Assembly: GCA_034231615.1 (NCBI GenBank) | Contig: CM067299.1 | Location: 12,701,863-12,765,862, forward strand | From: Meghimatium bilineatum | Taxonomy: Eukaryota; Mollusca; Gastropoda; Stylommatophora; Philomycidae | DNA: 64,000 nt | Reading direction: 5' to 3' | Shown here: in pieces, positions 11,688 to 64,000 of the stretch | Layout of the letters: every line of letters begins with the position of its first letter | How positions within the stretch are numbered: the first letter of the stretch is position 1 | Program-made: the position numbers and the translations under genes | The notes under the pieces: model-generated | Database searches by the model: none | Told to the model about the DNA's origin: nothing | What the model saw: only the letters and a program-made list of their open reading frames with translations

Positions 11688-11826
11688 TTACTCTTCATCA
11701 TCATCAAATTCTTCTTCATCACCATTTTCGTCATCATCATCATATGAGTCGGAATCATCCAAAAGTAAGTCAACTTTACATCTTTTTTTCTTGACAGACA
11801 GGCTGATTTTTTCATCAAGCTCATCT
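11688..11826 (-). CDS. AGTPBP1: CCP1 exon 19: acidic C-terminal tail and stop
   Basis: The acceptor is TTATTCCATAG. It encodes [16 protein letters not shown], then an Asp/Glu-rich end ([20 protein letters not shown] plus EE) and a TAA stop at 11688-11690. Acidic tails are usual in CCP1. Phase 2 in fits exon 18. The link to exon 18 rests on phase and composition rather than conserved residues; an additional small exon in the 3.2-kb intron cannot be excluded. Confidence 0.85.
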
Positions 11827-14800: not shown

Positions 14801-17800
14801 ATCTCCAGCCAACATCTATCATGGAGAATCATTGAACATATTTTTTCTACCCAAGTCCTAAAACTAAAGTGGAAATCTTAGAAATCATTGAACATATTTT
14901 TTCTACCCAAGTCCTAAAATTAAAGTGGAAATCTATCTCCAGCCAACATCTATCATGGAGAATCATTGAACATATTTTTTCTACCCAAGTCCTAAAATTT
15001 GACAACTTACTCAAAGTCTTCTGGAGTTGCCTCACTGCTCATAGCTAGGTCTGGGTCAAAGACAGGCATTTGCTGATCATATCCTCCTTTCTGTGTGGCC
15101 AATTTCAAAAGAGTTTCACAAAATTTGTGCCCCATCTCTTCCAACATGGCTGTATTGATTTGCATATCCTGAAAATGTGCATATTGATATGCATATCATC
15201 AAGGAAGCACAGAACAAGTTGCAAACTTATTGCATATAGAAATGTACAACATAATATTTCATAAACATATTCACCATTATCAGTCAATAATGTGTAGAAA
15301 TGTATCAAATATGTATACCAATCATCATCATCAGGTGTCGTGTCGTCTCCACAACGAAGGCTGCTGCAACTAACAACAGACCTCCACATCTTCTGTCTCT
15401 TGCCAATTTGCTAGACTGAAACATGTCCATCTCATGATGTTTTCCCTCTCATTTGTATCTTTACCTACCTCAATTGCTGTCCCTCAACTCTACCTACAAG
15501 TACGGTCGTCAACAGGGTGTAATTTTTTTTATATTTCCAAAATATTTTATGTGTTTCATTTTTATTTCTTTTAATAGTCCTTTTTTGATATACAGGTAGT
15601 CATTCCTTTTTGTATATTTTCTTCTCCTGCCATGACATTCTCTCTATTCTTCTATGAATCCATATCTGTTTGTCTCAAATGTTTTTGCTCATTATCTCTG
15701 CTATGAGCCATACATTAATGTGCAATAAATGTAGCATTTTATAATTCTCATTTTTAGTTTGTTTGTAATTTGTTTAATCTCTGTTTCATATCTACTATCA
15801 TTTGTGATTATGTGTCCAAGATTTATTTGTTGCAGTATCTCCATCTATATTTATGGTTAGCATTTGTTCTTCTTTGTTTGAGCAGACTACATAGTTGTCA
15901 ACGTATTTTTTCACAAATCAGTATTTTAATAATATATTTCCGTAATTCAATAAAAAAAAGTATGCTTTTAGCACCCCAAAAAAAACCCCAAATATCCAAT
16001 ATATATTTTTTTTGTCCCTGAATATGAGCATGTGAGATAAAAACATCAGCATTAGTAACAATTACTAAGAATTTGGAGATGCGGTTAGTCAAGTACTGAA
16101 AAACGCGTGTGCAATTGTTGCTAGGCGATTTGGTGCCGTAGAACGGACTGGTTCAATTCCCGTTAGTCTCAAGAATTTTTAAAATATTATCCTCTGGCTT
16201 CCTACTTAAATTTACTTGTATAAACAATTATTTGAAGCAAAATTGTATTGTCTATATATGTTATCCATGTTTACAAGAAGACCTATCGGCCCTTGTATAA
16301 CTAATACGGATATTATGTTATGTGTTTGTTGTTACTGAGGATATTTCAATACCTGTACGGGATGTTTGTTGTTGTTGTAATAGTCCTTGTCTCGATTGGT
16401 CCGTTCGGGTGACTTTGTGTGCACGATTTGAATGGCTTGATGAAATCGCATCTTTTTTTGGAGATGCGGTTAGTCAAGTACTGAAAAACGCGTGTGCAAT
16501 TGTTGCTAAGCGATTTGGTGCCGTAGAACGGACTAGTTCAATTCCCGTTAGTCTCAAGAATTTTTAACAATTACTAGGAAATTGTACACCAAGTGAACTT
16601 TAAAAAAAACAATTCTTTTTTACTTTGGGGGTTTTTTTGTGTGTGGGGGGGCGGAGGCCAAAATCCATATTGATAAGGAAAGTCTGTATTAATTGACACC
16701 TATATATACTTTGATTACCAATAGTCCATCATAGATTTGATGTTGTGCTTGAACTAGTTACGGGCGCGGCGTGGGTTGGGCAGAACAACAAAGAAACCTG
16801 TCGCAAGGGCCAGAGGTGTGCCCTGATGTCGACGTCTGTTTCGGCGATATTAGACTTGAAACACCATCAAGTCGGATGGCTGCTGGAACAGAGGGCGGAG
16901 CACTTATGGGGATACCCCATGTGCTGTGAGGCCAGTTTCTAATCAAGAATCAAGTCCATGTGTAATATTCGTCAAATCCCATTATAACAACTTCGTCCGG
17001 ACCAACAAAATATTTATGTACGGATAATAACATAAATTCACTATATAACAGTCAAGAATCTAACCTGGCAATCAGTGTACTTATCAGTTCTACTAAGCCT
17101 GCTATACATTGCAGTTTATTTATAAACACTACGTGTATGGCATGCTGTCACTAATCTGAAACCTACCCTTGGTCACACTTGATTGACCTTTTGCCTCTGT
17201 TTCACTATTGACATCACAGATGCTAACAGTAAGCTCTAAAAGCTAGGAGTGTTTGAAACATTATGAGATAATCAAACAATGTCATTCTTTGATATTCAAT
17301 AAATTTCATTTAGGACAGTGTCCCTAAGAACACCTGATGTGCCTTATGTAATATTGCTTATTTTTAGGAAACCATAATCAACTTTATATTTTATTCATTT
17401 ATAGTGAAAACTTTCAGTTCTCACTCTCTGTTCTAATTCTTCTTCAATTCTGTTTCCATTATCAAAACACTGCTGGCGAACAGGACTAGTCTGAAGAACG
17501 GAATGTACTGTGTTATGGTTTACAGCTGCGATGTGATTGTTATGGTTTACAGCTTGGATGCGATCTCTATGCCTCTCAACCTATCACATCAGCTTGTCTT
17601 CTGGGTTACTTTGATTAATAAAACAGCCAACTACACTCCCAAAACTTTCCTAGTTGCCTCTTATGATAGACAGAGCACATCACAATGTTGTTATTCTTAT
17701 CTCCCCTTTCAAGCCCCGGAAACACGGAGATGTTTCTAATTTATTGAGGATTATTTACCTTGTACTTTCCTTGGTCACAACCACAGTAACTTGACTCCAT

Positions 17801-20800
17801 TGTGTATGATCTGACCACTCCAATATGTCTCCAGACAACCACACGAGCTGTGTTTTCTTTACCCTTCTCAACAACAAAACTGCAGTTCTTTAAACAGAAA
17901 GATGGGCAGGCAGAATCTAGCAGTCGAGGAAGTTGCTGAAATACATAGAAAAAAAACTATGAAATTACAAAACAAGGCAAATAATGAAGATTCATATAGA
18001 ACAACTCATCTCTAAAGTAAAAAAAATACACATGTAGTGACCACCAGACTTATTTTCTCATTCATAGTTTAACATGTCTACACAGCAAGTCCAGTTTAAC
18101 ATATCTACACAGCAAGTCCAGTTTAACATATCTACACAGCATGTCCAGTTTAACATATCTACACAGCATGTCCAGTTTAACATATCTACACAGCAAGTCC
18201 AGTTTAACATATCTACACAGCATGTCCAGTTTAACATATCTACACAGCAAGTCCAGTTTAACATATCTACACAGCATGTCCAGTTTAACATATCTACACA
18301 GCATGTCCAGTTTAACATATCTACACAGCAAGTCTAGTTTAACATATCTACACAGCATGTCTAGTTTAACATGTCTACACAGGAAATTCAGTTTAACATG
18401 TCTATACAGCAAGTCCAGTTTAACATGTCTATACAGTAAGTTCAGTTTAACATATCTACACAGCAAGTCCAGTTTTCTTTGTTATGCAGACATGTTAAGT
18501 GGGCGGGTCACATGATTGATGGTGCACCTCTCTGCCTGGTTCAATTCTTCGACACCTCACAGCATAAGCAGAGAAAAGACAATAGATAGATAGATGGTTA
18601 GGAACCTATACCATAGAAAACGAAATATAGATTGTTATATAGATTGTTATATAGATTGTTATATAAATTGTTATATAGATTGTTATATAGAGTGTTATAT
18701 AGAGTGTTATATAGATTGTTATATAGAACTGAGAGGATGAAAGATCAAATTGAACAGGATAGAGACAGTACTCAAGAAATGATCAACATGATGAAATAAT
18801 CTCTTTAGCTATTAGCAGGTAGCTACTGACAGCTCATAACCGTACTGACAAAAGTTGAGCAACTGAGGAAAGGAAACACTCAGACACACGTAAAGCTTGT
18901 TGTCTCAAAGTCATGGTTGTGTTAGGGATGCATGTTTAGTCCCTGAATCGAGGTAGTCCAGCATAGCATAGTATCCCAAAACCATTATTTTCTGCCAAGA
19001 CACATATTTAGTGACATCAGAGATAGATGGACTGACAATAGATAACACATATTTAATGGCATCATGCCATGCCCATCTTCCCTTGCGAAGGAGGAACATC
19101 ATCATCATCATTGTTTGTGACATCAGAGATAGACTGACAATACACAACAGATATAATGGCAGACTTACCTTGTAGCTGAAATCTATAGGCTTGTTACCAG
19201 CACAGGCTGGATTGTGAATATCATTAGCAATCCAAGTCTGGTTTGGGCTACATCCATACAGAAATATGTTTTTACGTCTAGAGTGCCCATGGTAATCACA
19301 GTACACCTGCAATAACACAAGCCACAAAAGAAAATGTCAGTTTTGTTCATAGTTTTTAAATTGACGTATTAAAGTTTATTTAGGTACAATCTACAGAACC
19401 CCTCTGAGTAATAAGCATCTCCTCAAAGCATTGCATAACACTGAGAATTAAAGTGTTCTGGGTATGACAGAAAGCATTGAAGAAATGTCCAACTGCATGA
19501 AGAAAACAAACAGTTCTGTGTTGGGGAAGCACAGACATGTCTAGAAATGACCAAAGTACCAAGTTACAGTTCTCGCCGCATGAAGGGAATAGCTGTCCCT
19601 TCACCTCATATCTTGGACCCTGGAAGCAATTAGGGTTCCATTTACAAACCTCAATGATAGGATAATCTAGAAATGTAAATTTTGTATATACCAAGAACTG
19701 TGCCCAATATGATAGAAGTTGATTACTGCTTCCCTCAAGAGGATCTCTTAGAGTGCACTTTAAATGTATGTGTATCTATACTCCAAAGGCTCTCTAAGAC
19801 CATCTACTTAAGCACAACTCTCAGTTTATATTTCTCAATTTTCACAAAATAAACTGGTGTTAGTATGTGTAGATTTTATCTATGACTGGTTCTATGGTCC
19901 TTCATAGATGACATGAACATGCAGGTATTTATAGAAATGAGACATTAGAAATGATTGCATCAAAATCAAGTATAGTCTTGGACACTCTGGGAGTAAGAAC
20001 ATGATTAAAGGGATATTTTAAGGTTGCCTAGTAACCACCAGATGCAAGAAGATACTACAATTTATAACAGTGATTCTTAACAGGAAATATATGACTTGTT
20101 GAGAACTAATATCAGATAGTCGATGACCTTAATTTTTCAAGATCCACTGGAAAATAATTTCCATAAATGTGTAAAGGACACAAAAAGCTTGAGAATCACT
20201 GATTTATAACAACTGTACTGCAGTTAAGGTAATTTGGCAACAAATGTTATTAAAACAAATACTAATGAGACAGAATTTGATTAAACAGTGAGAAATGGAA
20301 TCATTAGCATACAAAACTTATACATGTGCTGGAGAAAACTGTGCTCCTATGGGTCTGTCCAGAATACTAACATAGATTCATTCATAAAAAAATATCCACC
20401 TACCATGGGTGTCTTGTTGATCATGTGTAAATACTGTAGTAATCCCTTGGTGTGGTAAATACTGGGGTGAAGAATTTTGCATGGCTTTCCCCACTGTCGA
20501 TTTAAATCTTCACCCACAAGAGATGAACGGTGACTGAAACATACATTTCATAAACATTTAAATCTTCACACACAAGAGATAAATGGTGACTGCAACATAG
20601 ATTTCATAAACATTGAAATTTTCTCCCACAAGAGATGAATGGTAACTACAACATACATTTCATAAACATTAAAATCTTCACCCAAAAGAGATGAATGGTG
20701 ACTGCAACATAGATTTCATAAACATTGAAATGAAATAGAAAATTTGTTTAAAACATATTGATTAAACTAAATGTCGACTGAATGCTGTGTTCTCCATAAT

Positions 20801-26800: not shown

Positions 26801-29800
26801 TGTGTACAGAAAATGTAAAAACACATCAAAGGCAGATTTTGAGTATTTCCGTGCATGTGCTGGTCGGCCTTGCCAATTTTTAACATGCCACTCCAAGTAT
26901 ATAAATAGGGACCAAGACAATAATCAGAAACATAAAGAATGAAGTCCTAATTAATTCTGTACAGAGGTCTTTTTCTACATTCAACGGTCTTGCACAAACA
27001 CGGTCTTGCACAAACATGTAACTGACATCCAAAACTTTGCTACTTAGGCAGTGTTGGGGGGATGGCGGAGAGAAATAAATAGTGAAACTTGTCTGAGCTG
27101 TGCCTCATGTTTATATTACTGTATAAGGTAAACATACAGGTCACACAAAGTTCAAACTCGTTGTTAAGTTCAAACTGTTGATTCTGTATCTTTTAAAACC
27201 TTTTAAAGCCGGGGAATGACTGTCTGCAATATTTTTGTGAGAACTCGGTGGCAAATACCGGTAGTTACATACTGGTACTCTGTATATTCTGTTAATTAGT
27301 CCAGCCCACTGAGGCTGAAGATGGACTACTGGCCCTACCCATTTCAATCGGCTCAACCAATCCACGTTTCCCTCACATTATGTGATGCCATTCAGATAAG
27401 TGACTAAAATGTAATCTTTCTTTATAGAAGATTTGAAACGGGTTCCAAATCACAACACATCATAGGCATTTTGTAGTAAAATTGCACCGTAATTGATTCC
27501 CTCCCCCAACCACTGTACATTTAGTGGAAGAAGAGATCAATTTCACAATCCTCTGTTATGTTTATTTTATTACCGTATTCTCACCACATGGTAAACATAA
27601 CCAGGAACAAAGTTCAAACTCTTCTGTATCTTATAAAAACAAACGTGATCTTGCTGTCTTGCCTTTCATCATTTCCCACTTAAACGTCACTGTCAGAAGC
27701 CAGTGACATAATAGTTACGTAGTAATTACTATTCACTAGCGCTGTTCCGCGTCATAACGTCCAGACACCCAACACAGACAATTCATTCAGGAAAAACTTT
27801 GTTCCCCAAAGTCTTGCCACCTCATAAACCGTCTATAGTCATGGATAGGGAAGTCAGCCTACCGGGTATTCATTATTTTCGGATATATTGATCCAGAATA
27901 CAGTAGCCACCGGGGTTTAATTCCTTGATTCATTCAAGTTACGTGAGTGAAGCAAATGAAAGGAATGCTATTTTCTTAGAGTTGCAAAAGTTTGTGTTAA
28001 TTTCCATTTAGCATGTCGGTTCTTTCTTATGATGATGAAGTTCATTATTGCCGGCTTTGTTAAGTTGGGGATGTCAGTCTATAGTCGGACTTTCGACTTT
28101 CTCCACTTATGGGAAGGGATAGTTAGGTTATCGGCCTACAATCGGATGGGTTTATATTCAGAATTTAACGGTAGGTGTCAAGTTCTTTAATTTTTTTTAA
28201 TATCCTTACATTACCAGTGTATTTGCAAGAACACTAGCTGATCACTTAATGTTTAATGAAATTACCACATGGCCAATGCACTTACACAACTCTTCCACTC
28301 CTTCTTTGTTTACAGATCGAGGCTGAGCTGTTATAGTCAGAACTGGAACTGCATTACCTCCTAATGTTGTACACAGAGTTTGGTTGCGGAAGAAGATATT
28401 GTTGGAGTTATAATGCTTTTCCCATTGCAACAAGTGTGTCTGAGGAATATAACAATAGACTGAATACAACCATAGACTGTAATTCAAAATATGGGATGGA
28501 TGTGGCAAATATCTTAAATGCAATTTTAAACTGTAAAAATAATGTAAGGGAATAATTGATGAATAGGGAGTGCTACTGGTACCAATGTATAAATGATGTT
28601 TGGAAGTATTTAATAGGGCATATATGTTGATCACAAAGACTGTATAAATAATATTACAGTAGTATTAAGAATACAATCACAGACTGTATAAATAATGTGA
28701 AAGCTGGAAAATAACAAAAGCACTGGAGAAGAAATTAAACTCATTTAAAAATAAATGTCATAGAAAACTTAAAAATTGGTTGGAAAGAATTTAAGTCAAA
28801 CAAGCATGTAAGAGAAGATGCCAAATACTAATAAGTTTCTAACATTAAGATGAAAGTGATGGACTTATATTGGACATGACTTAGAATAAATGAAAACATA
28901 CAGCCACTATAAACATTAAAATGAGTACCAGGTGGCAAAATAAAGAGGAAAACAAAGAGAAACTCTCAGCAGAACAACTGTCAAAGAGCATATTCACATA
29001 GATCTACAAGAATGTGAATCCAGAATTGAAGAAGAATAACCAAAGACAGAGATGGGTGGAGAGGGATTGTGTCTGCAGCAATAAGCCTACATGACTTGCA
29101 GCAATAAGCCTACATGACTTACAATGCTAAGAAGAAAAAATAATTGTCCAATCAAACAAGCATAAAAGTAAAGTCCACAGAAAAATGTAGTCCAATCTAT
29201 CCTGTCCATAGATTTCCACCCCATGTCTGTCCTTGAAATGCCAATATCAAAGAGAACTTTAAGCATCCTCTCTTCATGATTTATACGTCTTCCCTGTCTT
29301 CTTTTTTCCTGTAAATTCTATACCAATGCCTTTCTTGCACTACAGTTTTCTGCTTTCCTTAAAGGGTTATCTCCTAGGCGACAGGTCTACATTTCACACT
29401 TTTTCAGAAATCGGTGTCAATCCGAAAAGTTAAGTAATCTGTCATGTCACTCTTCTGCTGCATTACTAGTTACAAAATGGCTGCCATAATTGTACTGAAA
29501 TTTCTTTCGACTGATAAAGTAATTTTTACCATTGACAGGAGTGTTCCCAGATGTTAAGATATACATGGGGCACATACTATGATCTTAATCTACTATGCTG
29601 CGGGAAAGACTGCCTGGAACTGCACTGTTAAAAAAGCAATATCAACAGATTGAGCTGGTGGGGTAAATAATAAAAACAGGATTGGTGTTTAGCATTTAAC
29701 ACCTTGGAAATAATCAATAAAAACATGTTATATTATTAGAACACAATATTATTCTCCCATTTTTCTTAAATTTAATCTCACATTCCAGAAAATCTCCTAG

Positions 29801-30427
29801 GAAAGAACCCCTTAAAGTGTGTCAATACAACTGTATTTCCTATTCATTAAAAATAAATATATATAAAAATGCATCAAAAGTGTAGAGAAGTGACTCTATT
29901 ATAGTCAGATTTCCACATATGTACTACATCCATCTCAATGAAGCAGCACACAGCCTACCAAGATTCCCACTCATTGCATGTATGGTAACTCTGAAGCTTT
30001 AGGGGATAATCTTTAGGGATTTCAGAAAAAATGCACTAGTAAACAAGATGTCACTATGAAATATATATATTTCCATATCTATCCATCTATTTCCATAAAC
30101 TGTCAGGGTTGTAGGAGTACGACATTGGATGCATCAACACACAGAGTCCTACATCGATTTCTATCTTCAGCAATGCAGATCAGTGAGAATAAATCCCAAC
30201 CTATCCAGTCCTTAAAGTTGTTTGTCGATGATTTTCTTTTTTGTTCTCCTCTGCTCCCTCCATATTCAACTGTTCCCTGTAGTATTGTTTCTTACATAAA
30301 TGTTCTTTATCCATCAAAGTTGATGATGGCAATTTAGCTCAACCAGGATGATGATAGTGACTGTGGAGTGTCAGATCGTCATGATCTGATGAGTCCTAGA
30401 TTTTTCTTTGACACTCTAATCATCAGA

Positions 30428-30479
<52 letters not shown>

Positions 30480-33400: not shown

Positions 33401-36400
33401 CGCCATCTAGCGAACATAAACATAAAGTTCTATGATGATATCAACTATAAACAGCTTTAGAAACCACCTACTGCATTTTCCTGCCATCCAACATCAATTT
33501 GTGACTTACTTATTGACTCCCCCTCGTAATTTAGCATATAGTACCTTTTTTCACTGTATGTAACCCAAAAGCTTTGCTTCTACACACTCATCTTGAACAA
33601 TAAAACAGAGGGTGTGGTAAGTTTGCTAGATAATAGAAATTTATTATAGTAAAATTTCAGGTAAAGTATGGCCAAACTCCTAACCTTTTAGTTATTTTCA
33701 ATTTGACAAAAAAATACAGAAATGGCCAAACTCCTAGCCTTTAAGATATTTTAAAGTTGACCAAAAAAAAATACAAATATAATGGCCAAAATATAAATTT
33801 CATGGCTAGTGACATTTTAAAATGGCAAAATGTATGAAACATTCTGGAAACCTTGTTATAAAAGGCTGCCTCTAATAAAATACAATGCACTTATCTTTTA
33901 TCCTACTGTGATATAATATATATCAAAATGACTAGAATTAAATAGGGTATTCAAAATAAATGTTCATATATTAGCAAAAATATATACATAAATCATATCA
34001 ATAAAAGCTTAACACTGAGATTAAAAAACTCTTAACACTGAGATTACCCTCAGACCATCTATTCAAAGGAATTGTGGTAAAAACTTAAACAAAAAATCTA
34101 TCTGTTAGGAAGTTGCAAAATTACCGTAAAAATCGTGTATAAATCCATCCGATAATAGGCCGAGAACCTAATTATACCTTCCTGAAAGTGGAAAAAGTCT
34201 AAGATCTGACTATAGACCGACATCCCCAACTTAACAATGCCGGCAATAATGAACTTCATCATCATAAGAAAGAACCAACACGCTAAATGGAAATTAACAC
34301 AAACTTTTGCAACTGTAAGAAAATGGCACTCCTTTCATTTGCTTCACTCATGTAACTTGAATGAATCAAGGAATGAATACCCAGTAGGCTACTGTATTCT
34401 GGAACAATACATCCGAAAATAATGAATAGGCTGATTTCCCTATCCACAACTATAGACAGTTTATGAGGTGGCAAGACTTTGGGGAACAAAGTCTTTCCTG
34501 AATGAATTGTTTGTGTTGGGTGTCTGGGCATTATGACACGGAACAGTGCTAGTGAATAGTAATTACTATGTAATTATTATGTCACCTGCTTCTGACAGTG
34601 ACGTTTAAGCGGAAAGTGACATACCAAAGTTAAAGTGACTACAGTTTTTTGTTTACTATCACAAGTGACATACCAAAATTAAATTGACTGTTCAGTTTTT
34701 CACAATTGACAATGTTGAAGCGGTAAGGTTTGTCAGCTTGCATGTTGCTAACCTCAAAGTAGAACCACTGATGGTGATGGTCAGAGTTAATGTCCGGATT
34801 CAGAATAAGGTCATATTCATACTGTCTCACCTGCAATGGAAGAAACTAATTTTGAAGAGAAATAAAAACTAAATTACTAAATATGAAGAAATACAATGAT
34901 ATATAACCACTGACATTTCATTAATCTAGTTATTGTTGTATTATTCCCAGAGCAATAAGTTCTTACTTCATTCCATTAATCTATGACATTGTTGTATTAT
35001 TCCCAGAGCAATAAGTTCTTACTTCATTCCATTAATCTATGACATTGTTGTATTATCCCCAGAGCGATTAGTTCTTACTTCCTATTTGGTGTTTTCTCTA
35101 GAGCTTGATTTCATTCCCAAAATACTCTAACTCTTAGCAATGTGCAATACTTTGAGATGAGGCCTTCAACTCAGAGAGGGCAAATTTTAAGGGTTCTGTG
35201 GGAACAGTTATAGATTTATTAGCTGTTATTTTTCCCTTATCACTACTATGTCTATTTCCTTTCCTATTTGCAACAAGTAGGTATTCTCTACCAGTGTAAA
35301 AATAAAAAAAATTGTTTTCTGACTCATATCTTGAAATAATTCCTTCAGCTCTCAAAAAATAATAAAGTCTAATTTTTGCTAAATCTTTGAGCTTAAGATG
35401 AAGTAATTTTGCTAATTTCACAAAAGCTAAACCTACTTTAATAAGTAAATTTTAAGTAAAATTAAAATGTGACCGGCGTCTGATCACATAGTACCATGAG
35501 AGTTTCGTTTGTGTTTGTCAAACTTCTAAGTTTTGAACAGCTGAATTAGATCATTCAAATTCATTTACAATAGAAACTAAACAAAATTAGAGGACAACAA
35601 TATCATCTGTAACAATAATATATTGTTTTTACAATAATCCTGAATCACATCATCCACAAATATCATTTTTAACCCGGACAGAGTTAATTTTTAAAGGACT
35701 TACATGAATTACTTTGCGAAGGTTTCCACATTCAAACTGTGCATTAAATTTGAGAAAACCACAGTTAGCATCCACAAGACCCACTCTGAAATATGCGTAT
35801 ACAATAGTATATTATATGCATGCTATATACACTCCATATAACTGTGCTATATACAAATGTCCCTAAATGTACAGGTTTAGAAATATCACATATGATTAAT
35901 ACCAGTAAGAAACAGATATATATTTTTATGGGGTTTCATTCTCAAACTTAGAAATATCACATATTATTAATACCAGTAAGAAAGAATATATTTTTGTGGG
36001 GTTTTTTCTCAAACTTAGAAATATCACATACGATTAATACCAGTGAGAAATAAATATATTTTTAGAGTGGGCGTTGTTCTCAAACTTTCACTGTATTTCT
36101 CTTGTAGCAGAACAATAGTCATACTAGATATCCAGCAATATTTTGGGGTTTTAGGAGGGTTATTTTTCCATTTCAGGGAATGGAAATGTGTTGTGTCACT
36201 GCGTTATATGTGCCGGTGACCTGACACATCAGCATGAAACATATTACATTTTTTATTTTTATGACATTGCTTATATAGGATGTCTGAATTTTCTATCCGT
36301 GTTAAGTAAAAGCAAGAATAGGAAAATGATCATTTTAAAAATTAAGTGAGGTAGAGGTTCATGTAGCTTTATCACAACAACTTCCAAGGTAAATCTGCAG

Positions 36401-39400
36401 TTTCAATAAAAGAGGGATGTTCTAACATTCAAAGTTTCAAGAATACTTTAAACGCAGTTCATATTAGAAGCTGACTATTTTGTCTTGGGTTTTTTCTGAA
36501 GACAAATCAAAACCTCCACTTTTACTATTACCTGACTTTATCTGTATTTCTCAGGCCTGACCTGCCAAACCTGCTTGGTGTGACATCACTCCCAGTATCC
36601 AGAAGAAGTGTGTCCAAATCATAAACCACCTCATCCAGAAGATCGTCAGGATTGATCATTCTGTCAATGTCCTCAAAGATTTTTGCTCTGAGAATTAATA
36701 ATGTCATTTTCATCTTTATAAGAATAATTATATCAAACAAATCATCCAAAAAATCATCCAACAAAGCATCCAACAAATCATCCAACAAATCATCCAACAA
36801 ATCATCCTACAAATCATCAAACAAATCATCAAACAAATCATCAAACAAATCATCAAAAAAATTAAAATGGATTGCTCAATTTTAAAGCAGTGTGTTAAAG
36901 GTTAATAAGGGGTAAAGGTAAATAAGTTATAAATTATCATCATAGAAAATAGTTTTCTTATAAGTGCTCAGCTGCCTAGTGAGTGGTTGGCAGACACCAC
37001 CTGACTAGTATCATCTTCAGCCCTTTCTGAGTAGCAATATCCATCAACCTTTACAGAGCACGGTTCTGGTACCATAATTCTTGCTCTTTGAGTGGACCAT
37101 AAGAGACAAATTTCCTTTTCAAACTAGGAGTGATGATAGAAATCAAAACACACATGACCTGGTTGGCGGCCGAATGACATACATTACTCTAAATCCATTC
37201 CCTTTAAGAAGGTTCCTTTATAACTATAATCCACAACGATGGCAGATGTGACTAGTACAAGCAATCAATCAGTCACAAAGCATCTTCCACAGTATGAACA
37301 AGAAATCTCATGACTATCTCGTGCCATTATGTAATGTGGTGTGTCTTTTCCAACATGCAGACTTTGATCAATCTGCTATCACTTTCTCTTTCTTCTTAGT
37401 ATCATTCCTGACATTTCCCCTACATGAAACATGATCCATGGCATTATATTTCCATCTTCCTATATCAATGCCTGTATCATATATATCATGAGTACAAACA
37501 TCATTGCACCATAACAGACATCATTGCACCATAACAGACATCATTGCACCATAACAGACATTAATCCAGACATTTATTTACCAACTGTAATTCCCCATAT
37601 GGGATGTCCTGTAAAATTGACATATTAAAATAAATTTAAAATGAACATTATATACATGTGTATCAGTCAAGTTAATTCTTAGCATAACTCATCAAAACGC
37701 TAACCTTGGCAGACCAAACTTGTGAGGTAACTACCAACAACTCTCACCATTTCACATAAACTTGTGAGGTAACTCAACAAAACTCACATTTTCACACCAA
37801 ACTTGTGAGATAACATTAAAAACTCACCTTTGCACACCAAACTTGCGAGGTAACAAACTCTCTATCAATACAGAAGACCCTTTAACTCCATACATATCAG
37901 GAAATGCAAGTTTCTGAAATTTGTAAACACTATGAGTGCATGATGCCATCTGGGCATACAACATAGGATCATGGGGAAAATAGCAGGCGTCACTGTCCAG
38001 ATCTTCACTACTTGAGTAGCTGATCTGAAAACAACATAATTGATGTTATCCTTTTTTCTTAGAAGAAACAAGATATTAAAGGGATGAGTAAGGTACTACG
38101 ACAATAGTCCTTCTTCTGAAACAAATTTCCTTTGTTAAACAGTCTATATAAATAGATAGTAGTGTTGCCTCCATGAATTCAGCTGTCAGCAGGAGGTCCT
38201 ATCAGGTGCCACTTCACTTCCAGTTGTCTTTTTTGGCAATATTTTAATGCTCAGAATGCAAAAGAGTATTGCATAATTATTTTGTGGAATCTTGGTATCT
38301 TTTGGACATGTGCATATATGAATTTGGACAACCTTTCTTTTGTGGAAATGCATCTGTAGTCTACAATGTCCTGTGCAGAATCTGGAGGTAGTAGTCTGCT
38401 GTGAGCTATCCAGCTTTTGGATAGAATCTTGTGGAAAGTTGCTGCCTGTTTTCTGAATCCATGTATATTTTCACTTTCTTTTAATGTGTGTTTTTGCTCC
38501 CTTCAGTCATACTCTGTAATAGAGTTGCTCATTTTCCGTACCTACTTTTGCGAGCCTGTCAGCTCTCTCATTTCCTGCAATTCTATAGCATGTAGAGATT
38601 CAGTGCAATATCTGGGTCAAAGGGCATGAGCCCATGGACAGCTGGATCAGCAACCAACCATAGAAGTTCTAAGGTTGTTTTTGTTAGAGCATTTTATGTT
38701 CATTTTCAATAGCATGGAGAACTGACATGAAGTCACAGATGCAAGCTATGTTTGCTCCTTTGAATCTATATTCATTTAGTATCTTTGATGTTTCTAAGAT
38801 TGCTTGTAACTATTTGTTGATAATCTGCTGGTTTTGATTGAAAGTTCCATGACAATTGAAAATGTTATGTTCTAGAAGTTTTACCTCACTAACTTTAAGA
38901 TGGAAACATTTAGGAATTCAACAAAATGAACATCTAAAAACATCATTTCATAACTACAGAATATATATATAGTATAGAGATGCTTAAGGATACTATTAGG
39001 TTCTCTGTATCGTTCATGTTCATATAATAGTGTTAAAAGGTGTTTTTTACTCCACGTGTATTATGTAGTATTCTTGATAAAGACCTTTCGATTGACATGT
39101 CGATTTTTATATGCTATCATGCATGTTTCTAGTGATTAGCAAAAGTTCATAACCCTGTTTCCAAGTCTCATTGATTAGATTACAGTTTTGCTATACAGTT
39201 ATTACTCATCGATTTTTGTCATCCGTCCATTTCTTTCTCATAACTATTTCTTATGAAGTTCTTACGAAGACAATGGGCAGTAAACCATCATGCTAGGAGA
39301 TTTTCATTGCCAAATAAACCTTTTGCCCACTGAAATACTTCAATCAACCACAGAAAAGCAATATTTTTTTTCTACTCCCACTTGCATTGCTGAAAATATA

Positions 39401-42400
39401 AATTGTTGGAGGACTCTATGTGTTGATGCATTGAATGCAGTATCCCTACAACCCTGAAGAGTTATGAATTTTATGATGATGATATGGTAATGAAGTTATC
39501 TGACTAATATGGTGATGAAGTTATCTGACTAATGTGGTGATTTGAAGATGAAGTTGCCTGATTACTATTATGATGAAATTACCTGACTAATGTCATCAGA
39601 TTCTTGTGAAGAAAGGTTCAGAGTGTTTAGACTTTCACACAGTGACTTATCCAAACATGTAGTGGATGTCCGTCTGCTGTTATGCCTCTCCTTTCGAGCT
39701 GGAGCTTTCTTCTTCCACTTGCTCTTGATTAAAGCTCTATTACTCTTGCTGGGGGATAGTGACCAATATGGTCCAAGATCCAAGGTGATCACACTCGACC
39801 CAGTTTTAAGATTGATGGCACTTGCACTTTTCTCTTCAGGATGATAGCCTTGAAGAAAATATAATGACCCAATTTAAGCTATGAATCAGTTTTCCTGTCT
39901 TCATACACATTTCACATACCAAAACTCATTTAAAAAATAATTTCTTACCCTGATATTGATAAGCTAATTTCAAAATTCATTTCTTAACCTTTGCCACACC
40001 AATGGCTACAAATGTCAGCAATTGTTTTTCAGTTGTTTAGGACCATTGGTGACATTTGTAGCTTATTGGTAAAGTCATCATTCATCGACGTGTAACAACA
40101 TGATTGCTAATGTCATGTGACCAGAATAAGCAAATAATAGTTAGCAGTAGTATTGTACTTCTGATGCTGGTCGGTTTAGTCTGTGAAAATAAGAGAAAGA
40201 CAGAAAAAAAAATTGTTAATATCAAGAGACATCTGTCCAGATCTGAACCAATCAGTGGCTTATAATGGCCGTCAATATGTATAACTGACGTAAATCATTA
40301 TGGATTGTGATTCTGACTATAAGGAATTCTTGGAAATTATGTCTGTTTTCAAATTATCAAATTAGATATGGTAACACATCATATGTAACAAGTTTAGACA
40401 AATATATTGAAGGGTTTGCTGAAATATTTTATTTATTTCTCCATAATATTATGTTAGTTTTGTTATGAAACAACATATATACTATAGACTTAGGTGTTTA
40501 AAAATATGTCATTAGGGTTGCCCCATCGGAAAATAAAGGTAGTAATTTGTATTTTTTAACAACGTTTTTTTAAATTTTTGTTTAAATCTTACCCATTTTT
40601 TCATCCTTACAACTTTCTCACACCTCTTGCATCAGACATACACAAACAAAACTTACACACAAATTTGCAGAATGCAAATCTTTATTTACATGTGCACAAA
40701 TTATATGAATATCACTAATAGTAAAAAAGTTATTGTCTTTTCAAAAACTCATGGTTGGTTGTTTTTGTTTGTTTTTTGTGAAAAAAACCTCTTCAATATT
40801 TCCTCACACCTCTTATATCACACTTACAAAACAAAATATTACCCACATATATTCAGTAATTTTGTATTTACATGTAGAAAAATTATTTGAAAATCTATAA
40901 AAACATAAAAGTTATTGTGTTTTTCAAGCACCTACCAAAGATTGTGTAATTTTAATCCAGCTTGTTAAAGGTTAAACTGAAGTTGAAAGGGTAACCATGA
41001 CCAAGAAAACAAGAATATCATAAAGTATTTCATTCTGGAATCAAATATTCATTTCTTTTTAGAATCTGCAAATATTTACTCCTTCTTCTGCGTCGTAGAT
41101 TATTTTGGTAGTAGATAAATGCTACAGAAGAATTCTACGAATTTCCTATAGGGAACATAAGACCAATGTGTACGTAAGAAATAAAGTAGAGATGTGTGCA
41201 GGTGTCCAGGAGCCATTGCTTTCAATAGTGAAACGACAAAAACTAGCATGGTTCGGACATGTATGCAGGCACGATTCCTTGTCAAAAACAATACTGCAGG
41301 GAACTGTCGAGGGTGGAAGAAGCAGAGGAGTCCAAATAAAGACATGGACAGACAACATCAAGGAATGGACAGGGCTAGATATTTCCACACTCATCCGCAT
41401 CGCTGACGATAGAATTCGCTGGAGGACTCTGTGTGCTGAAGCATCCAATGTGGTACCCCTACGACCCTGAAGGGTTATGGGTTTATTGATTGATTGATAT
41501 TAGTGTAGGTTCTGTTTGTATATGTGTGATACAAGAAGTGTGAGACAGTGGAAATTTTTTTCACAAACACAAACATAAAAGACTTACCTACTCATTGTGG
41601 AGCTCTGGGGTTCAATTCACTTTGAAATTTACAAGGGAATGATATCTAGCAAAATAGGGGAAGGGATACAGAGCTACCTTACATGCTGGGCACACATAAT
41701 GGGTCTGATGGAGATTGTTTTCCCCAACTGGAACTGACCATGCAGTCGAGTTTGGAAAGTTTGTCACTGGCCAACCATTTAGGATTTATAGCCATAAAGT
41801 GCCCACCTGCCACAAGCCTATCTGGTAGATTAGTAGTTTTTCTGTCCTTGTGGGAAGTGAAAACCCTAGACTGTCACCCATCAAGAAGCCCATGGACAAT
41901 CTGCAAGCGAAGTTTTTTCATTTTGACACAGCCAGGATATTTGGCTATCCACAGGAATGATGTTCGTCTGTCGTGATCGACGATGACCAAAAACTCAACC
42001 ATAATAATAATAACAATAAATAATAAAATAATAAAGTTAATAGTGCGTTTTTAAATGACTAGTCCAATGCGCACACAAAATGTTCTTTTACAGAATTGAC
42101 AACAATAGAAGGTGTCTGTTGAGGTTGAGATGTTTTTTCTTTTCTGCGTGTCCTCTTCTGTCTTGCAGTTTCTTGTCTGAATTCTTCCGCCGCTAGTGCT
42201 CCCGTTCTAATGCTGTAACGCCATGCTGTTCTATCCTGAGCGAGGCTCTCCCAAGCGCCTACGTCAATGTTAAGATGTTTCAAGGATGACTTGAGAGTGT
42301 CTTTGAAAGGCTTTTTCTGTCCACCAGCTTTTCGAAATCCTGCCTTGAGTTCTCCATAATATATTTGTTTTGGCAAACGCGAGTTCTCCATACGCACAAG

Positions 42401-45400: not shown

Positions 45401-48400
45401 TTTCAGTGATTATTTCCCTTAGTTATAATTACCCATCAGTTGGTCAAGGTGAAGATATTTATTTAGGAGGGTTGTTTGGGTGTGGGTTCTCAGTATATGG
45501 CACACACATCTCTGCATCCGGCAGCAGTTCTCGTTACTGTAACAAACATATTACATGTTTACTGATTGCTGGTAAGCTAATCAAAATTAGGACTACATTA
45601 GCCATTTTGTATCAGCCAGCTGTCAGTAATGTCACAGAATTACACACAATTTTTTATTGGTGCAGATTTTATCAAAAGTTGGAAGGCTAACCAAACATGA
45701 ACCAGAAAGGATTTTATATCCATTACAGTCAATCTTCTTCTTCTTCCTCTGCATTAAATCTCTGAAAACCAACATGGAAGTTTGTGTGTTTTCTGCCAGG
45801 TAGTGTAAAATATGTTGTGCTACTGGTTTCACAGCAGAATTGTTAATTTTTTCACTTTCCAACCCAAAAGTCAAACTTAAATTTGGAGATTTCTTCCATT
45901 AGTGACTTTCTGACCCAACGATGGTCCACTCCAGGCATCCCTATATGAATTCTGCCTCTCTCAGAAAGTGGTAAATGGTATATATGCTGATGGTTCCTAT
46001 AGCCTGTTGATTGTAATTGTATTATCTTCCTCGTTCAATCTTTTAATCGTCCTCCTCGACTATTTCCCAGAGTATTTGCAAAAAAATTCTTTCAATCTAT
46101 TAGTAACAGTCTCATTTGCTATGGTGTCCTCATCCAAAAAATGAAGTTCTATGTGAAATATATTTAATTAGAAATGAATGTTAACAATTTGTGATAAATA
46201 TAAATTAACTCTGTCTTTCCATAAGGGTCACCTGTGGGTAAAAGAAAAAGTGGAAGACTTAAAACAACCCTTAAAAACACCATTCTTAAAGAAGGAGAAT
46301 TAATAGGCTGTAAGACCATCCAGGAACTAAAGCTGCAGGCAGCGGACCGCATCATAGGAGAATCAAAACCTCTGCCCTATGTGTCGCTTGCAGCACGAAA
46401 CGAACAAACTAACTAACTAACTTTCCATAACAATTAAATTTCGATATAATAGAACAATACTCCAAAATATATATATGTTTCTTTGTTCGATATTTATCAC
46501 TCACCTCCTTCTGCAGAAGGCACAAGGACACTTAGACTTTTAGAATGCTGCTTGGGAAACGAACATGGACCAGTGCTAGAATCAATGACTGTTTTCTTCA
46601 AATTTCCTTCAGAGGAGACATATTTCATCTGAGAATGTTCCAAATCTAATATTGAATTCTTGTTACTCAGGTTGACTGACGCTGATCTATGAAGACTGTT
46701 GGGTGTCAACTGAGAAGATGCCATGGACTGAAACTAACACATAATTATGAGATATTTTAGAACAGTATTCACAAATACATAACACAACACATAATTATGA
46801 GATATTTTAGAACAGTATTCACAAATACATAATACATAACACAACACATAATTATGAGATATTTTAGAACAGTATTCACAAATACATAATACATAACACA
46901 ACACATAATTATGAGATATTTTAGAACAGTATTCACAAATACATAATACATAACACAACACATAATTATGAGATATTTTAGAACAGTATTCACAAATACA
47001 TACATAATACATAACACAGAGCATCAAGAGAGGAGATTACATCAACTGTAACTGGGTCAAAGGGCATGAGCCCATGGACCGCTGGATCAGCAACCAACCA
47101 ACCAACCATCAACAGTAACTAACACACAATTAACTTCTCAGACATTTTAGATTCATATTCCAAATCTATCTATCTATGTGATTTATCCTGTGCACAATGT
47201 TGTCCTCATGGCAATTATGTATGCTTCTCTGTTCTGTGCAAGCTGTCCAGTCCCTTAAAGTGTTATGTTTATAAAGTCTTCAACATCCTGTCTGTATCGT
47301 AATCTGTATTACTAATATGAACACACAATAAACATAATGCTGATTAATAGAATAATTCATGGCACCTTGTGCTGACTCATGGATAGGCCTACTCATATTT
47401 TGATATCAGATAATTTCAATGTATATTTTTCCAGAGACGAACAGAAATTATGACTTGATATACTGTTGATATACTGAAGCATGGAGACTTACAGGGGGAC
47501 AAGGAGAAAAATGAAATGGGGAGTCACAAACTTGCCCATAGGGGCCACAGAAAAGTAAATCTTTTTGAGAAATAAACAAGATGATTCAAAGATATAAAGT
47601 TTAAAAACCTTTCATGACTTGCAAGAGTTTTCTCTTCATTTGACCATGAAGATGACCTTTTTTCTTCATGTGTCAGGGAGGCCATGGAAGAAAAATTCTC
47701 TCAAAATGGGATCATGGGACAAAAAATGGTTGACAACTACTGCTCTAATACACTGGAAACAGAAAGAAATATATTACTGTTTCTAACATGTTGATTTCCA
47801 TTTAATCTCAGGAAAGTTGAATCAACAGAATTGTAATATATCAAGATCATTTTATTTTAGTCCTTCATTTCTGACAGATATTGTAAACATGCAAATGTCC
47901 AATGTGATAACCATGGCAATACACAATGTGTTATTTTTACAAAATATGCAATGCCTGCTATATATGAGTTAACATCAGTAATAGACCTATTCGTACCTGT
48001 TGCTCCAACAATTCTGGAAAGAATGTGTCATACATGCGCAAGTCTTCTAATAGTCTCGTCTCAGCAGGTTCTGGGCTGTCCCGTTGATCTTCATCTGGCT
48101 GTAGGAAAGTGGATAATCTATAATCTTAACACTCCGTTATGATGATCTTAGTTCTTCCAAACCAGAACAGGACACAACAGACTAAATAACCATTTAAATA
48201 GACTAAGACTGATTTCATCACCTCTTTATTCATTTGGGCAGGCATCACAGACTGCATGAGATATTCTGTGGGACTGCAATACACTAAACCAGTTGAGAGC
48301 AAAGCATTGGTCTATAAACACAGACATCCACAGAGAGCTGTATGGGAGTTTTGAGGAACTTTCAAATACAACAATATTTATCAAGAAAACTAGACTTGCT

Positions 48401-54400: not shown

Positions 54401-57400
54401 CTCACATGTCACATATGCACAAATGAAACTTACATCATTACATTCTGTAAACTTTCCTTTATTTCCATAAAAAATAATATACAAAAAAGCTCCCAAAAAA
54501 ATAAAAAACTTATTGTGTGTTCTTAATACTCTCTATAAATAATGTGTAAAGTCAAAAAAAGAATGCAGTGGCAGGGAAAAATAACAATCTTAATGCAGTG
54601 TGCTAAAGGTTAATCATCAAGCTACAGGGACCATCAGGCTGATCAGCATACATACTCTCTGACATCTACTGGAGGAGATGGATTATTTATTGAATGACCC
54701 ACAGTATTATTACATCAGTTCATAAAGTAATATGTAAAGATAACAATTCAATAGAACATGCTTTACTAGTAGCAACAAACATATTCTCTGTAGCTCCTGC
54801 AATGGCACTAAAAGTTTATCAAAATAAACATAAAATTTAACATTAAAAGAAACAAACAATTTCAAATACAAAAGAAGTCTCAAGTCCCAACTGTTGCAAG
54901 CAAATCCAAAAATCTATAAAACCAATATCCTTTCTGGGTCTTTTGTGAGATGAATTGGAAAACTGCATTGGAAGTATCAACAAAGGCTATAGAGACCCAT
55001 AGCTGTCAACTTATTTTTTTATACATTCATATTTTTTACAAATTACATGCGTATTCTTAGAAAAAAATCTGCATTAGTAATAATTACTAAAATTTAACAC
55101 CAAATGACCTTTCTTAAATTATTTTTAGGGGTCCGAAATCTGTATTAACATGGAAAATCCATACTAATTGACATCTATGGAGACCTCTACTGATTTTTGT
55201 CTTCAGTGCTGTAGATAAGCTTAAAAAAATCATGACTGGTTCATTCTTTGATGTCGGTCTCTCCATGTATGTCTTTGTCTTCCTCTGCTCCTTCAACATT
55301 TGACTGTTCCATGCAGGATTCTTTTTTTCTACAAGAACAATGTTGTTCTACAAGTCCAAACCATGCAAATATTTATCATTTGTAATATTGACATGAAAGC
55401 AGTGATTCTTTGTACCTCTATTTTAATTCTAATTACACATTTGTCTTATGCTCTCCATGGGAGATGTGTGAAATTTGTAATATTTCTATTCAAAGATTGG
55501 CATTCAATTATCTATGTTTTCAGTCAGTGTCCAACTCTCACAACAATACAATAAAATAGAAAGAACCAGTAAGTTATGTGCATTCTAACACTGATATAGC
55601 AAACAAATAAAAAGTCAACAACAATTCTGATTACAACAGAAACTCAAGATTTCTACCAAATACAAGATTTCGGAAAATGCCACAGATTCTATCAAGTTTC
55701 TCCGCTAAAACAATTTCAACCGAAGAACTTGAATCACTGCAAGCATCACTGGCTGACATCTGAGCTACAATTAGCAAAAATATTATTATAAAATCTATGT
55801 TAGAAAATTTTTGTGGCAAAAATTCAATAGACAAATGACTACTTGCAAAGTGAGTTTCACCACACTGCTAAGTATTCTATTCTTCACTGAATAGCATTAC
55901 AAGATCACCATATTTTTTTCTGCATTTTCTTAGTGCTTGGATCTTCTCACTTTCATTAGTTCTACTATGGCTATCATCTTCTTCTTTTACATTTTTTTTT
56001 TCAAACTCCCACAAATCAACAGGATGTAGTCCAGATAGCGAAATGCATTGAGTTTATGTTTTACAGATTAGCTACAATATCTGCGCCATTCAGACTGACA
56101 TGCCGGACTTCAGCACGGTTTCTGTGTCACTTTAATGCCCTATGAGATGGGGGGAGCCAACTTCATCCCAAATCCTTCTTAGTTGCCTCTATGACATGTG
56201 TCGAAGGTAACAGTGTCGCTAAAGACAGTTTTACATCAAAAGAGATATCTTATACAAAATATGTTTCACTGCACATTTATATAAACACTGCTGATGACAG
56301 ATTTGTTCATATTGGTGCAATATAAAACAATAATACAGCGCATTTCCATACTCTGTACTACATCCTGGTGTAAATCTAGTAAGAACAATGAGTACTGTCC
56401 TACTAGTTGCCAACACATAGTTGGGTTACTTCCCTGTCTATGTTTTTAAATTCCATGTTCATCAGTTAATAATTTAAATATTAATTTATTTTAGGGTTTG
56501 GTTTAGTTAGGATTGTTATGTTTTACATAACTATTCTAACCCTAACCAAAACTCTTTTTTTATTATATAATGGACATGACATTTACAAACATAGACAAGG
56601 GAAATAATTAGACGTGCTAGCATCTACTATGAAAGTACCGAACATTGTTTTGCTACTAGAGAGATCCAGCGGGAATTTGAGAAAGAATGCTGAAGACAAA
56701 GAATATAAACAAAGTGATTATCTTAGCTGCCAAGTAGAAACAAAACTCAACTCAGTCATGCAGCTGAAATGAAGATTTTTTATCTACAGAAAAGGAACAA
56801 ATAACTGTTAGATAGAGAATAAACCACAACAGACTCAAACAATACATGTACAGGAAGTTATGTACATGGAGTATGTGACGCTCTGGACAATATCCATATA
56901 ACACAGAACATATTTTACAGAACTGTCTACATTAATACACCACAAGGAGAAAATTATGACCATCTGAAACGGCTCTGACAGACAAGATCTATAGCCCTGT
57001 CGTGGGGATGGTGACTGCAGTACAGTTCTTTGATGAAATCCACATGAGAATTTCAATGAAGAAGTAGAAGTAGTGGCACTATTTTCTGAATAATAAAACA
57101 GCAACACAGGACATTATTACTATCTATCTATAAACAGCTACATAAGACATTATTACTATCTATCTATAAACAGATACATAGGACATTATTACTATCTATC
57201 TATAAACAGCTACATAGGACATTAATACTATCTATCTATAAACAGCTACACAGGACATTAATACTATCTATCTATAAACAGCTACACAGGACATGCAGTG
57301 ATTAAGAAAAGCTGGGGATGGGCAAAATATTGCCACTGCATGTCTTATCTCAATTTCTGACTTTTGTATTCTGTCAAATGTTTCTCCGCACCCCCCTGAG

Positions 57401-60400
57401 ATGTTTTTTGTTTCAGTTACTCTACTCAAGAGGATCTATGCTTTTGTCAAAAAGTCTATAGGATGTCAACAGCAACCTACTCAGTTAAACAGATTATTTC
57501 TGCATTATCATCATCATCCTCATATCTATAAAACAGCTACACAGAACATTATTATTGTCTACATAAGAAACAGCAAACATTATTATTGTCTACATAAGAA
57601 ACAGCAAACATTATTATTGTCTAATTAAGAAACAGCAAACATTATTATTGTCTAATTAAGAAACAGCAAAACTTATTATTATCTGCATAAGAAACAGCAA
57701 ACATTATTACTATCTGCATAAGAAACAGCAAACATTATTACAATCTGCATAAGAAACAGCAAACATTATTATTGTCTACATAAGAAACAGCAAACATTAT
57801 TATTGTCTAATTAAGAAACAGCAAACATTATTATTGTCTAATTAAGAAACAGCAAACATTATTATTGTCTAATTAAGAAACAGCAAACATTATTACTATC
57901 TACATAAGAAACAGCAAACATTATTATTATCTACATAAGAAACAGCAAACATTATTACTATCTGCATAAGAAACAGCAAACATTATTACTATCTGCATAA
58001 GAAACAGCAAACATTATTACTATCTGCATAAGAAAACTATTTGGTACTATACAAGAATCAGTGAACAGATTTCTACGGAACAAAAAGCTAACATAATTAA
58101 ATGGAACGAAATTCCGATAAAGACACATATTTCGACAAAGCCAAAATTCTACAAGTTTAGTAATGAGAGCCCCCATCACTTGATATGAGCGCTACACACT
58201 GAGTGGGGGGTGGCTGTCCAGTGTGTTGCACAGAAATCGCTAGATCAGTATCTTTAGTCACATTTGTTTAATCTCTGAGAAATGGAAGCTCAGTGCAATA
58301 GCATATGAAACTAAAAAGTCAGAATGTTGTCACGTGATTTGTCCACTGATTCTTCTATTGAATCTACTATTTATATTTATTACAATTTATAAATATTTTT
58401 TCTCTTTGTAGATTTTCTTTTTTTGTACGAGGCGTGTTCAAATGAAAACGGGACTTGTGGATTTATTTAAAAAGTATCATACGCAATTTAATATTTTCAA
58501 CGGAATTGAACAAAGCAACCACTTGTGAATAAGAATGCACCTGGGTTCATCAGAAAAAATCTCTGTATGCATTTAGGCAAGCATCCCACTGTTTAGGTAG
58601 ACGTCAAATGCCGTCCGAGAAAAAGTTGCGTGGCTGTTCTCTGAACCATGTGGTCACCGCTGTCTTCACGTCTGCGTCGCTGTTGAATCGCTGTCCCTTT
58701 AGTGCTTTCTTCAACGGTCCGAACAAATGGAAATCACACGGGGATAAATCGGGACTATAGGCTGGGTGATGAAGAACTTCCCAATTCTTCTTTGCCAATG
58801 TTTCCTGCACAATTTTTGCGACGTGCGGACGAGCGTTGTCGTGGAGAAGAATCACACCTTGAGAAAGTCTGCCTGGTCGCTTAGCCTTGATGGCCTTATG
58901 CAGCTTGTCTAAAGTGTCTTTATAATGGGCGGCATTGATGTTGACACCAGGTTCCTTAAAATCAGTCAACAAAAGCCCTTCATGGTCAAAAAATGCAGTC
59001 ACCATAACCTTCCCAGCAGAAACCTCCGTCTTTAAACATACGCACCCACTCCATCACTCTGGTCCTCGACAAACATTTGTCACCATATGCTGCCTTCATT
59101 CTCCGATGAATGTCTACTGCTTGACATCCTTCAAATGAAAGAAACTGGATCACAGCACGCTGATTCACTTTGGACGGGTTCGGAATCACACCCGCCATAT
59201 TGTTAACAGTCTTCTGCAGCACATATGCATGCTGGGAAGATGAACACGTGACCGTATGTAAATTATTGGATACTCATTACTAGTGCAAAATGTCATCAAT
59301 ATCAGTGCGCTCTATCACGCGTGGTGTAACAAGTCCCGTTTTCATTTGAACACGCCTCGTAACATTTGACTACTTATTCTTATTTCTATTACTTTCCATT
59401 GCTGTTACTGCGGCCCTGCCTTTTTGTCAGATACTTTCTGGCTTCTTGATTATAAGATAACTATCATTACTAGCGATATGTTTTCCTTCAGTGCAGAATA
59501 AGGTGCATAGAGTAGACAAGTGTTCTTCAGTTCAAGCAATGTGAGGCTCATCTGCATATAATATTATGACCACAACAATCAACTTACCTGGATAATTTGT
59601 CAAGAAGTAACACTCAGGTGTGTGTGTGGTAGATATCGGCAGAGGAAACAGAACAGGGCTAAGAGATGAGTCTAATGGAAGTCTGTTCCGAGGACAACAC
59701 TTGCGCAGAATGACACTGGCCAGCATTATTAGACTCTCCATGTCCCGGCAGTCACTAGCTTCCATTGCACCTTCGTAAAGAATTCTGATTCCATCAGCTT
59801 CCACAAATGCTACACGTCCAGCCTCTATCAAAATCAAAAGAAAGTTTTTATTATTTGCATTAACTAAATTCTCCAAATACATTAGTTCTAAGCACAAGAT
59901 GATGGTGATTATGATGAAATAATCCCTTTATCTGTGAACAGGTCATAACCTTTCTGACAAATTCATAGATTATCCTCAGTTGAGTAACTAAGGTGACACT
60001 CAAATAGTTTTACAGTTTTACACACATCACGTTTATGGTATCACAGGCATGTTTGTGCTGGAGGGGGTGGTTGTTTATGGATGCATGTTAAGTTCCTTTA
60101 GGGAGGCATTCCAATGCGGCAGTATCCCAAGATCATCACATCCTGCCAAGAGTGTAACATTTATGTCTGGGTCAACTAGTTCATCCTTCTTCCGTCACAT
60201 CTGTTGACCCACCTGCAGTGATGGCACATCTAGCATTCCCCACCACTTAAGAGTCTGCCACAAAAGGATAAAGATAGCAAAGATTGCTAGCATGAATCTC
60301 TTCATCATCAGTAGGGACCATTTGACAGAAGATACAAGTAAGAAATCGAAGCAAGGCATGCAGTGATTTACTTTTTTCATAGATCACAGGTTTTCAGCCC

Positions 60401-63810: not shown

Positions 63811-64000
63811 CTACAAAATATGCACAATTTCAATCATTAAAAATTGATTAATCTGTAAGAAGACAATCAGATAGTGGTCAAGAAATAAATCAGCTAATGC
63901 TTGACAAACAAATTATAGCCCAACCCTTTCATTAATTTATCAGTACAGAACCACAAAATGTAAGGCTCATGTGACCAATAATTGTGCACCATTTTAGGCT

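Follow-up and report, generated by a model that had tools for sequence, protein, structure and literature searches.

Tandem arrays in which an exon edge has been copied together with its splice signal have been described in lancelets (Branchiostoma), where the name "mirage" was given to them in the Adh3 gene; they are also found in the TnC, globin and PGBD5 genes of these animals, according to the parts of PMC3087553 and PMC3902484 drawn on here. In the relevant passages of PMC3087553, the mechanism by which mirages are generated is called unclear, mirages seem not to disturb regular splicing, length instability is noted, and intron gain from mirages is proposed as a route to new introns. The same passages cite the Rogers model, in which introns are gained by tandem duplication of proto-splice sites, and a case in the potato RdRp gene is presented in an excerpt of PMC4974935. 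Minisatellites are also found within introns away from such edges: the repeats of human TERT intron 6 are located >1 kb from the exon–intron junctions (excerpt of PMC3948165), and the intron occurrence of CeRep25B in Caenorhabditis elegans is tied to alternative splicing, copied splice sites not being described in the passages of PMC4039745 used here.

The duplicated exon edges of the slug Meghimatium bilineatum described below are new instances of this already named structure. The sequence-only reading of the locus had stated that no named mechanism was known to it, which overlooked the lancelet work on mirages (PMC3087553 and PMC3902484, in the parts cited). Among the papers inspected in a limited literature search there was no report of mirages outside lancelets, and none were found in the portions of PMC7931591 and PMC8096271 inspected.

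The M. bilineatum genome comprises 1.61 Gb in 32 contigs. Runs of the telomere repeat, TTAGGG or CCCTAA, are present at 11 of 20 sampled contig ends (one of them imperfect), five ends are N where printed, and four have neither. This repeat does not match the TTAGG of insects, and an insect origin, at first suggested by the mariner elements of the window, was rejected on that ground. Lancelet genomes, at ~0.5 Gb, are about a third of the size of this one, which argues against a lancelet.

Gene and Exon Model

The window, meaning the whole stretch of DNA that was analysed, is 64,000 nt of M. bilineatum assembly GCA_034231615.1 (contig CM067299.1, positions 12,701,863–12,765,862, forward strand). 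It contains part of one gene:

11688..63810, minus strand: CCP1/AGTPBP1-like cytosolic carboxypeptidase gene, 18 exons in the window in our model

The encoded protein has the Pfam domains PF25571 (TPR_CCP1_N, 4.8e-25), PF00246 (Peptidase_M14) and PF18027 (M14 N-terminal domain), and its best-scoring solved relative among PDB matches is CCP5. The model runs from E1 (63810–63664) to E18 (11826–11688, stop included), a span identical to that given by the sequence-only reading. The 5′ end of the gene lies beyond position 64000, and two further 5′ exons were located outside the window. The joined reading frame is unbroken over E1–E8 and again over E9–E18, up to the stop codon; the phases of E8 and E9 disagree (34830–36532), which may reflect a small exon absent from the model or an acceptor located 5 bases downstream. 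Addition of such a small exon between E8 and E9 would give the earlier count of 19 exons, with E9, E14 and E17 corresponding to the earlier exons 10, 15 and 18. The donor of E3 is weak and was picked in the model to preserve the frame. A candidate exon at 29.1 kb was rejected, its 23-bp repeat being without a GT donor. An Rfam search at the gathering threshold gave no match.

The introns also house several mobile elements. A mariner-type element in the E9–E10 intron (32190–33528) combines 39-bp terminal inverted repeats (92%) with a transposase frame that is open over 382 codons, and a second mariner-type element (58426–59361) has perfect 33-bp terminal inverted repeats with transposase similarity split over two frames. 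Relics of a reverse transcriptase (RVT_1) and of a DDE_Tnp_1_7 (piggyBac-like) transposase are located in the E5–E6 intron (42062–44427). By far the largest array of the gene, 2 kb with 63 copies of a 31-bp unit, occupies 48631–50588, 533 bp upstream of the E4 acceptor. All 29 matches of a DNA search with a two-unit query fall inside this array, a search that cannot prove absence of the unit elsewhere.

Exon Edges Copied into Introns

Four exon edges have been tandemly copied into the adjoining intron, namely the donors of E6, E7 and E9 and the acceptor of E14, with both 5′ and 3′ boundaries affected. At all four, the copied segment includes coding bases and the splice signal, which confirms the earlier statement that exons 6, 7 and 10 (donors) and 15 (acceptor) seed arrays containing coding bases. 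The exons, as placed by the exon model, and their duplicated edges are as follows:

39583..39848, minus strand: exon E6 (earlier exon 6)
39482..39591, minus strand: E6 donor array, 25-bp unit with 9 exonic bases; donor at 39583
37828..38024, minus strand: exon E7 (earlier exon 7)
37685..37854, minus strand: E7 donor array, ~40-bp unit ×4.1 with 27 exonic bases; donor at 37828
34674..34830, minus strand: exon E9 (most likely earlier exon 10), acceptor phase uncertain
34614..34700, minus strand: E9 donor duplication, two diverged copies ~49 bp apart with 27 exonic bases (bases and ends by eye); donor at 34674
20404..20533, minus strand: exon E14 (earlier exon 15)
20500..20731, minus strand: E14 acceptor array, 56-bp unit ×4.1 with 34 exonic bases; acceptor at 20533

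The extent to which the splice signal is retained varies among the copies. The E6 array, reported by TRF at 39482–39541 (×2.4) and lengthened to 39591 by flank alignment, has later copies without the donor GT. The E7 unit is composed of the 27 exonic and ~13 intronic bases; three further copies keep the GT and score 3.7, 4.6 and 3.0 by consensus weights, whereas the real donor reaches 7.9. The E9 copy carries an identical donor, TTG/GTATGT. This duplication gives no TRF row even at a score of 30 and was picked up by the scan of site windows for local duplication. In the E14 array, where the unit adds 22 intronic bases to the 34 exonic ones, three upstream copies keep the AG, and the two copies above the cut-off for listing have scores similar to that of the real acceptor, a weak site in its own right.

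The exon-proximal junctions keep the reading frame, which is continuous through E6–E7–E8 and through E9–E18. Extension of the exon to a further copy introduces a stop codon in all three cases tested: E7 (+40 bases), E6 (+58) and E9 (+50, one base past its copy). A fifth case is found beyond the window (~65427–65819 in window numbering), where the donor of a CCP1 exon ending at 65816 lies in a 57-bp ×7.0 array. This array begins with the donor TCAA/GTAAGT, and three of the further copies score 4.1–4.8, the real donor scoring 4.8. The copies within the arrays differ by substitutions.

Arrays Abutting Splice Sites and Chance Expectation

In addition to the arrays that span splice sites, others end just short of them:

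57096..57294, minus strand: array by the E3 acceptor, 36-bp unit ×5.5, stopping 11 bp from the acceptor
46736..47018, minus strand: array by the E5 acceptor, 57-bp unit, stopping 9 bp from the acceptor
14827..14997, minus strand: array by the E17 donor (earlier exon 18), 56/78-bp units
28445..28491, minus strand: array by the E11 acceptor (28439), 17-bp unit ×2.8, stopping 6 bp away

The first three bear out the earlier observation of arrays within ~15 bp of the splice sites of exons 3, 5 and 18, with the proviso that the E17 distance is 14 bp after extension and 77 bp by TRF alone. The array by E11 is absent from the earlier account; its units carry TACAG/TTCAG, which score below the real acceptor.

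Whether these arrays are in excess in the window depends on the null that is chosen. TRF arrays (score ≥50, period ≥10) cover 13.6% of the gene, and at that coverage there is no enrichment against random positions: 5 of 35 splice sites lie within 15 bp of an array, with 5.1–5.3 expected under coverage and circular-shift nulls. Similarly, locally duplicated site windows number 4/35 at the score reached by 10% of random intronic windows and 0/35 at the 5% level. Arrays grow by insertion, however, and the 2-kb array is one event, so that coverage and circular-shift nulls are less apt and provide a lower bound; for the same reason, each array was collapsed to one seed unit, such that one event counts once. 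Under this seed-collapsed null, 7 of 28 arrays lie ≤15 bp from a site (1.07–1.21 expected, P about 1e-4) and three of 28, E9 not being among them, span a site (0.74–0.84 expected, P 0.035–0.052). A more sensitive scan, which includes E9, finds four spanned sites (1.07–1.20 expected, P 0.024–0.033), and a null barring array–exon overlap of >33 bp gives five sites within 15 bp (1.08 expected, P 0.0045). These window P values are anti-conservative: selection of the window rested on the pattern itself, and the sequence-only reading fixed its 15-bp limit with the pattern already in view. An independent sample was therefore needed. The earlier claim that random placement would rarely hit exon edges so often is supported by the seed null in the window, whereas nothing is enriched under the coverage null.

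Splice Sites of Myosin and CCT Genes

The independent sample comprises 161 splice sites of myosin-head and CCT chaperonin exons in the same genome. The myosin part derives from at least 67 matches, including those with internal stops, with exons re-found by tblastn in five genes; it yielded 79 exon cores, and 109 of 158 sites passed the score cut-off. For CCT, 35 of 51 matches were used and 52 of 70 sites passed, the 16 matches left out being four located within or next to long uninterrupted frames and 12 that contain internal stops. In trials on E1–E17 of CCP1, the splice-site caller was exact for 48 of 51 acceptors and 42 of 51 donors.

Minisatellites are frequent in these loci as well. Arrays spanning a splice site were found at three of the 161 sites (95% CI 0.4–5.3%), with 3.9 expected, all of them at donors, on other contigs and in unrelated genes:

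L072, myosin donor: 87-bp unit ×3.1, 20 exonic bases
L064, myosin donor: 14-bp unit ×2.1, 6 exonic bases
L140, CCT donor at locus position 401 after reverse complement: 62-bp unit ×4.0, 41 exonic and 21 intronic bases

L140 is the clearest case; its copies are nearly identical in the part printed, and it is apparently a very young mirage. Directly behind the 14-bp duplicated donor of L064 lies sequence that by eye resembles a tRNA-derived SINE. At a further locus, L061, the array starts 2 bp inside the intron, repeats a donor-like GTAAG unit and has seven GTAAGA copies; it was counted as abutting. The spanning rate in CCP1 (4/35) is higher than in the sample (3/161; Fisher P 0.02), but the CCP1 locus was scanned in greater depth; when unextended TRF arrays are used for both, the rates are 2/35 and 3/161 (P 0.22).

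Arrays that lie close to a splice site, by comparison, are more numerous than expected at the larger distances: three within 15 bp (1.52 expected, P 0.20), 11 within 50 bp (5.06 expected, P 0.015) and 19 within 100 bp (10.1 expected, P 0.008), all for the 161 sites. For myosin only, counted per transposon-free base, 10 arrays lie within 50 bp (4.85 expected, P 0.027). The proximal counts for the 52 CCT sites are tiny, with no array at 0–15 bp and one at 15–50 bp. Interspersed repeats make up 13% of the first 50 bp of the myosin flanks and 31–38% beyond 100 bp; their larger share at a distance by itself lowers the background of distant arrays, and the proximity excess is thus partly an effect of transposon density. 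The mean match of arrays near sites is 91% (n = 12), compared with 87% for distant ones (n = 34; P 0.12), so near arrays are not older, and better preservation near exons is not favoured as the sole cause of the excess.

The sequence-only reading had conceived of a link between splicing and local duplication and had named a genome-wide absence of array enrichment at splice sites as the result that would speak against it. On these 161 sites, enrichment is absent for spanning arrays and mild within 50 bp; given this roughly twofold proximity excess, a clean absence of enrichment was not obtained, and it is for the spanning class that the proposed link finds no support.

Origin of the Duplicated Edges

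We consider it probable that mirages are ordinary short tandem duplications, the breakpoints of which by chance flank a splice site; the arrays would later grow and decay, and would be tolerated since one junction stays intact. Slippage or microhomology-mediated duplication would copy the exon edge, its splice signal and some intron. By the geometry of such an event, and consistent with the continuous frames, the copy adjacent to the exon would keep an intact junction, with the extra copies falling in the intron. With an intact exon-proximal junction the protein would be unchanged, leaving little for selection to remove, unlike the case of deletions or duplications inside exons. The arrays would then expand and contract like any minisatellite, and the extra copies would drift, in partial agreement with decoys that do not surpass the real site in strength and with tested extensions that would add a stop. 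In a genome full of minisatellites, such events are met again in other genes, with a frequency close to that of random placement, and CCP1 was noticed because its number of cases is unusually large. Counting against this account, the window exceeds the seed null, CCP1 exceeds the sample (4/35 compared with 3/161), and the number of arrays up to 50 and up to 100 bp from sites, about twice the expected one, is not predicted by purely random placement.

That excess is the main reason to consider a duplication hotspot at exon edges, where transcription, splicing-linked pausing or R-loops would make tandem duplication more frequent at introns or just within them. A hotspot fits the window count within 15 bp (7 of 28 arrays, P about 1e-4) and the count within 50 bp for the independent sample (11, with 5.06 expected, P 0.015). 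It also fits the finding that arrays close to sites are no older than distant arrays and hence not simply better preserved. We nevertheless regard it as unlikely: spanning arrays are not enriched in the sample (three, with 3.9 expected), the 0–15 bp class is not significant (P 0.20), the gradient of interspersed repeats (13% to 31–38%) alone lowers the distant background, and the CCT proximal counts are tiny. A splicing-driven mechanism is at most a possibility, and chiefly one that would account for the mild proximity excess. Rather unlikely, too, is a reading in which minisatellites are seeded preferentially within ~100 bp of splice sites, with duplication coupled to exon edges, and in which mirages occur at ~2% of splice sites, amounting to thousands genome-wide.

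Two further explanations appear highly improbable. Extra splice-site copies could be functional, either as reserve or decoy sites for the tuning of splicing or as sources of new exons or introns, as proposed for lancelet globins in the parts of the lancelet reports cited. GT or AG is indeed kept in many copies (E7, E9, L072, E14 and the seven GTAAGA copies of L061), and PMC3087553, in the passages cited, puts forward mirages as a source of introns, but GT is lost in the E6 copies, the copies at E7, E11 and L072 score below the real site, and all three tested extensions run into stops. GTRAG counts in sense and antisense are also similar, 9 and 7 in near-donor myosin arrays and 37 and 28 in distant arrays; with no clear difference between the strands, an enrichment of decoy sites was rejected. 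Equally improbable is an artefact of assembly collapse or expansion or of wrong exon calls. The exon edges are predicted from sequence, and the E3 donor and the E8/E9 junction are uncertain; against an artefact stand the substitutions among copies, the continuity of the frames elsewhere and the same architecture in unrelated genes on other contigs. Chance duplication tolerated at an intact junction thus remains our preferred account.

If the ~2% rate is true, mirages would be no lancelet curiosity but an expected by-product of genomes with high tandem duplication, and would provide many replicate natural experiments on spliceosome choice among near-identical neighbouring sites, as well as a stock from which alternative sites and new exons could arise. 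Local duplication would be tied to exon edges should the proximity excess hold, and the two together would make this genome, outside lancelets, an extensive natural laboratory for duplicated splice sites.

Comparison with Known Systems

Similar to lancelet mirages as described in the cited parts of PMC3087553 and PMC3902484, the structures in M. bilineatum are minisatellite-like tandem arrays (×4.1 at E7 and at E14, ×2.4 plus extension at E6, and two diverged copies at E9) in which the unit spans the exon–intron boundary, both donors and acceptors are involved, and many copies have AG or GT. Unit lengths range from 10–72 bp (Adh3) to ~160 bp (globins) in lancelets and from 14 to 87 bp here. 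Length polymorphism and normal splicing are reported for lancelet mirages in those sources, whereas the arrays in M. bilineatum are known from one assembly and from genomic sequence alone. The TERT VNTRs and CeRep25B, grouped here among intronic VNTRs with an effect on splicing, share with the arrays of M. bilineatum, as far as the excerpts cited describe them, that they are minisatellites in introns. As in the Rogers model of intron gain, in the form cited in PMC3087553, tandem duplication multiplies splice signals; unlike in that model, the duplications in M. bilineatum are at existing introns, which they lengthen.
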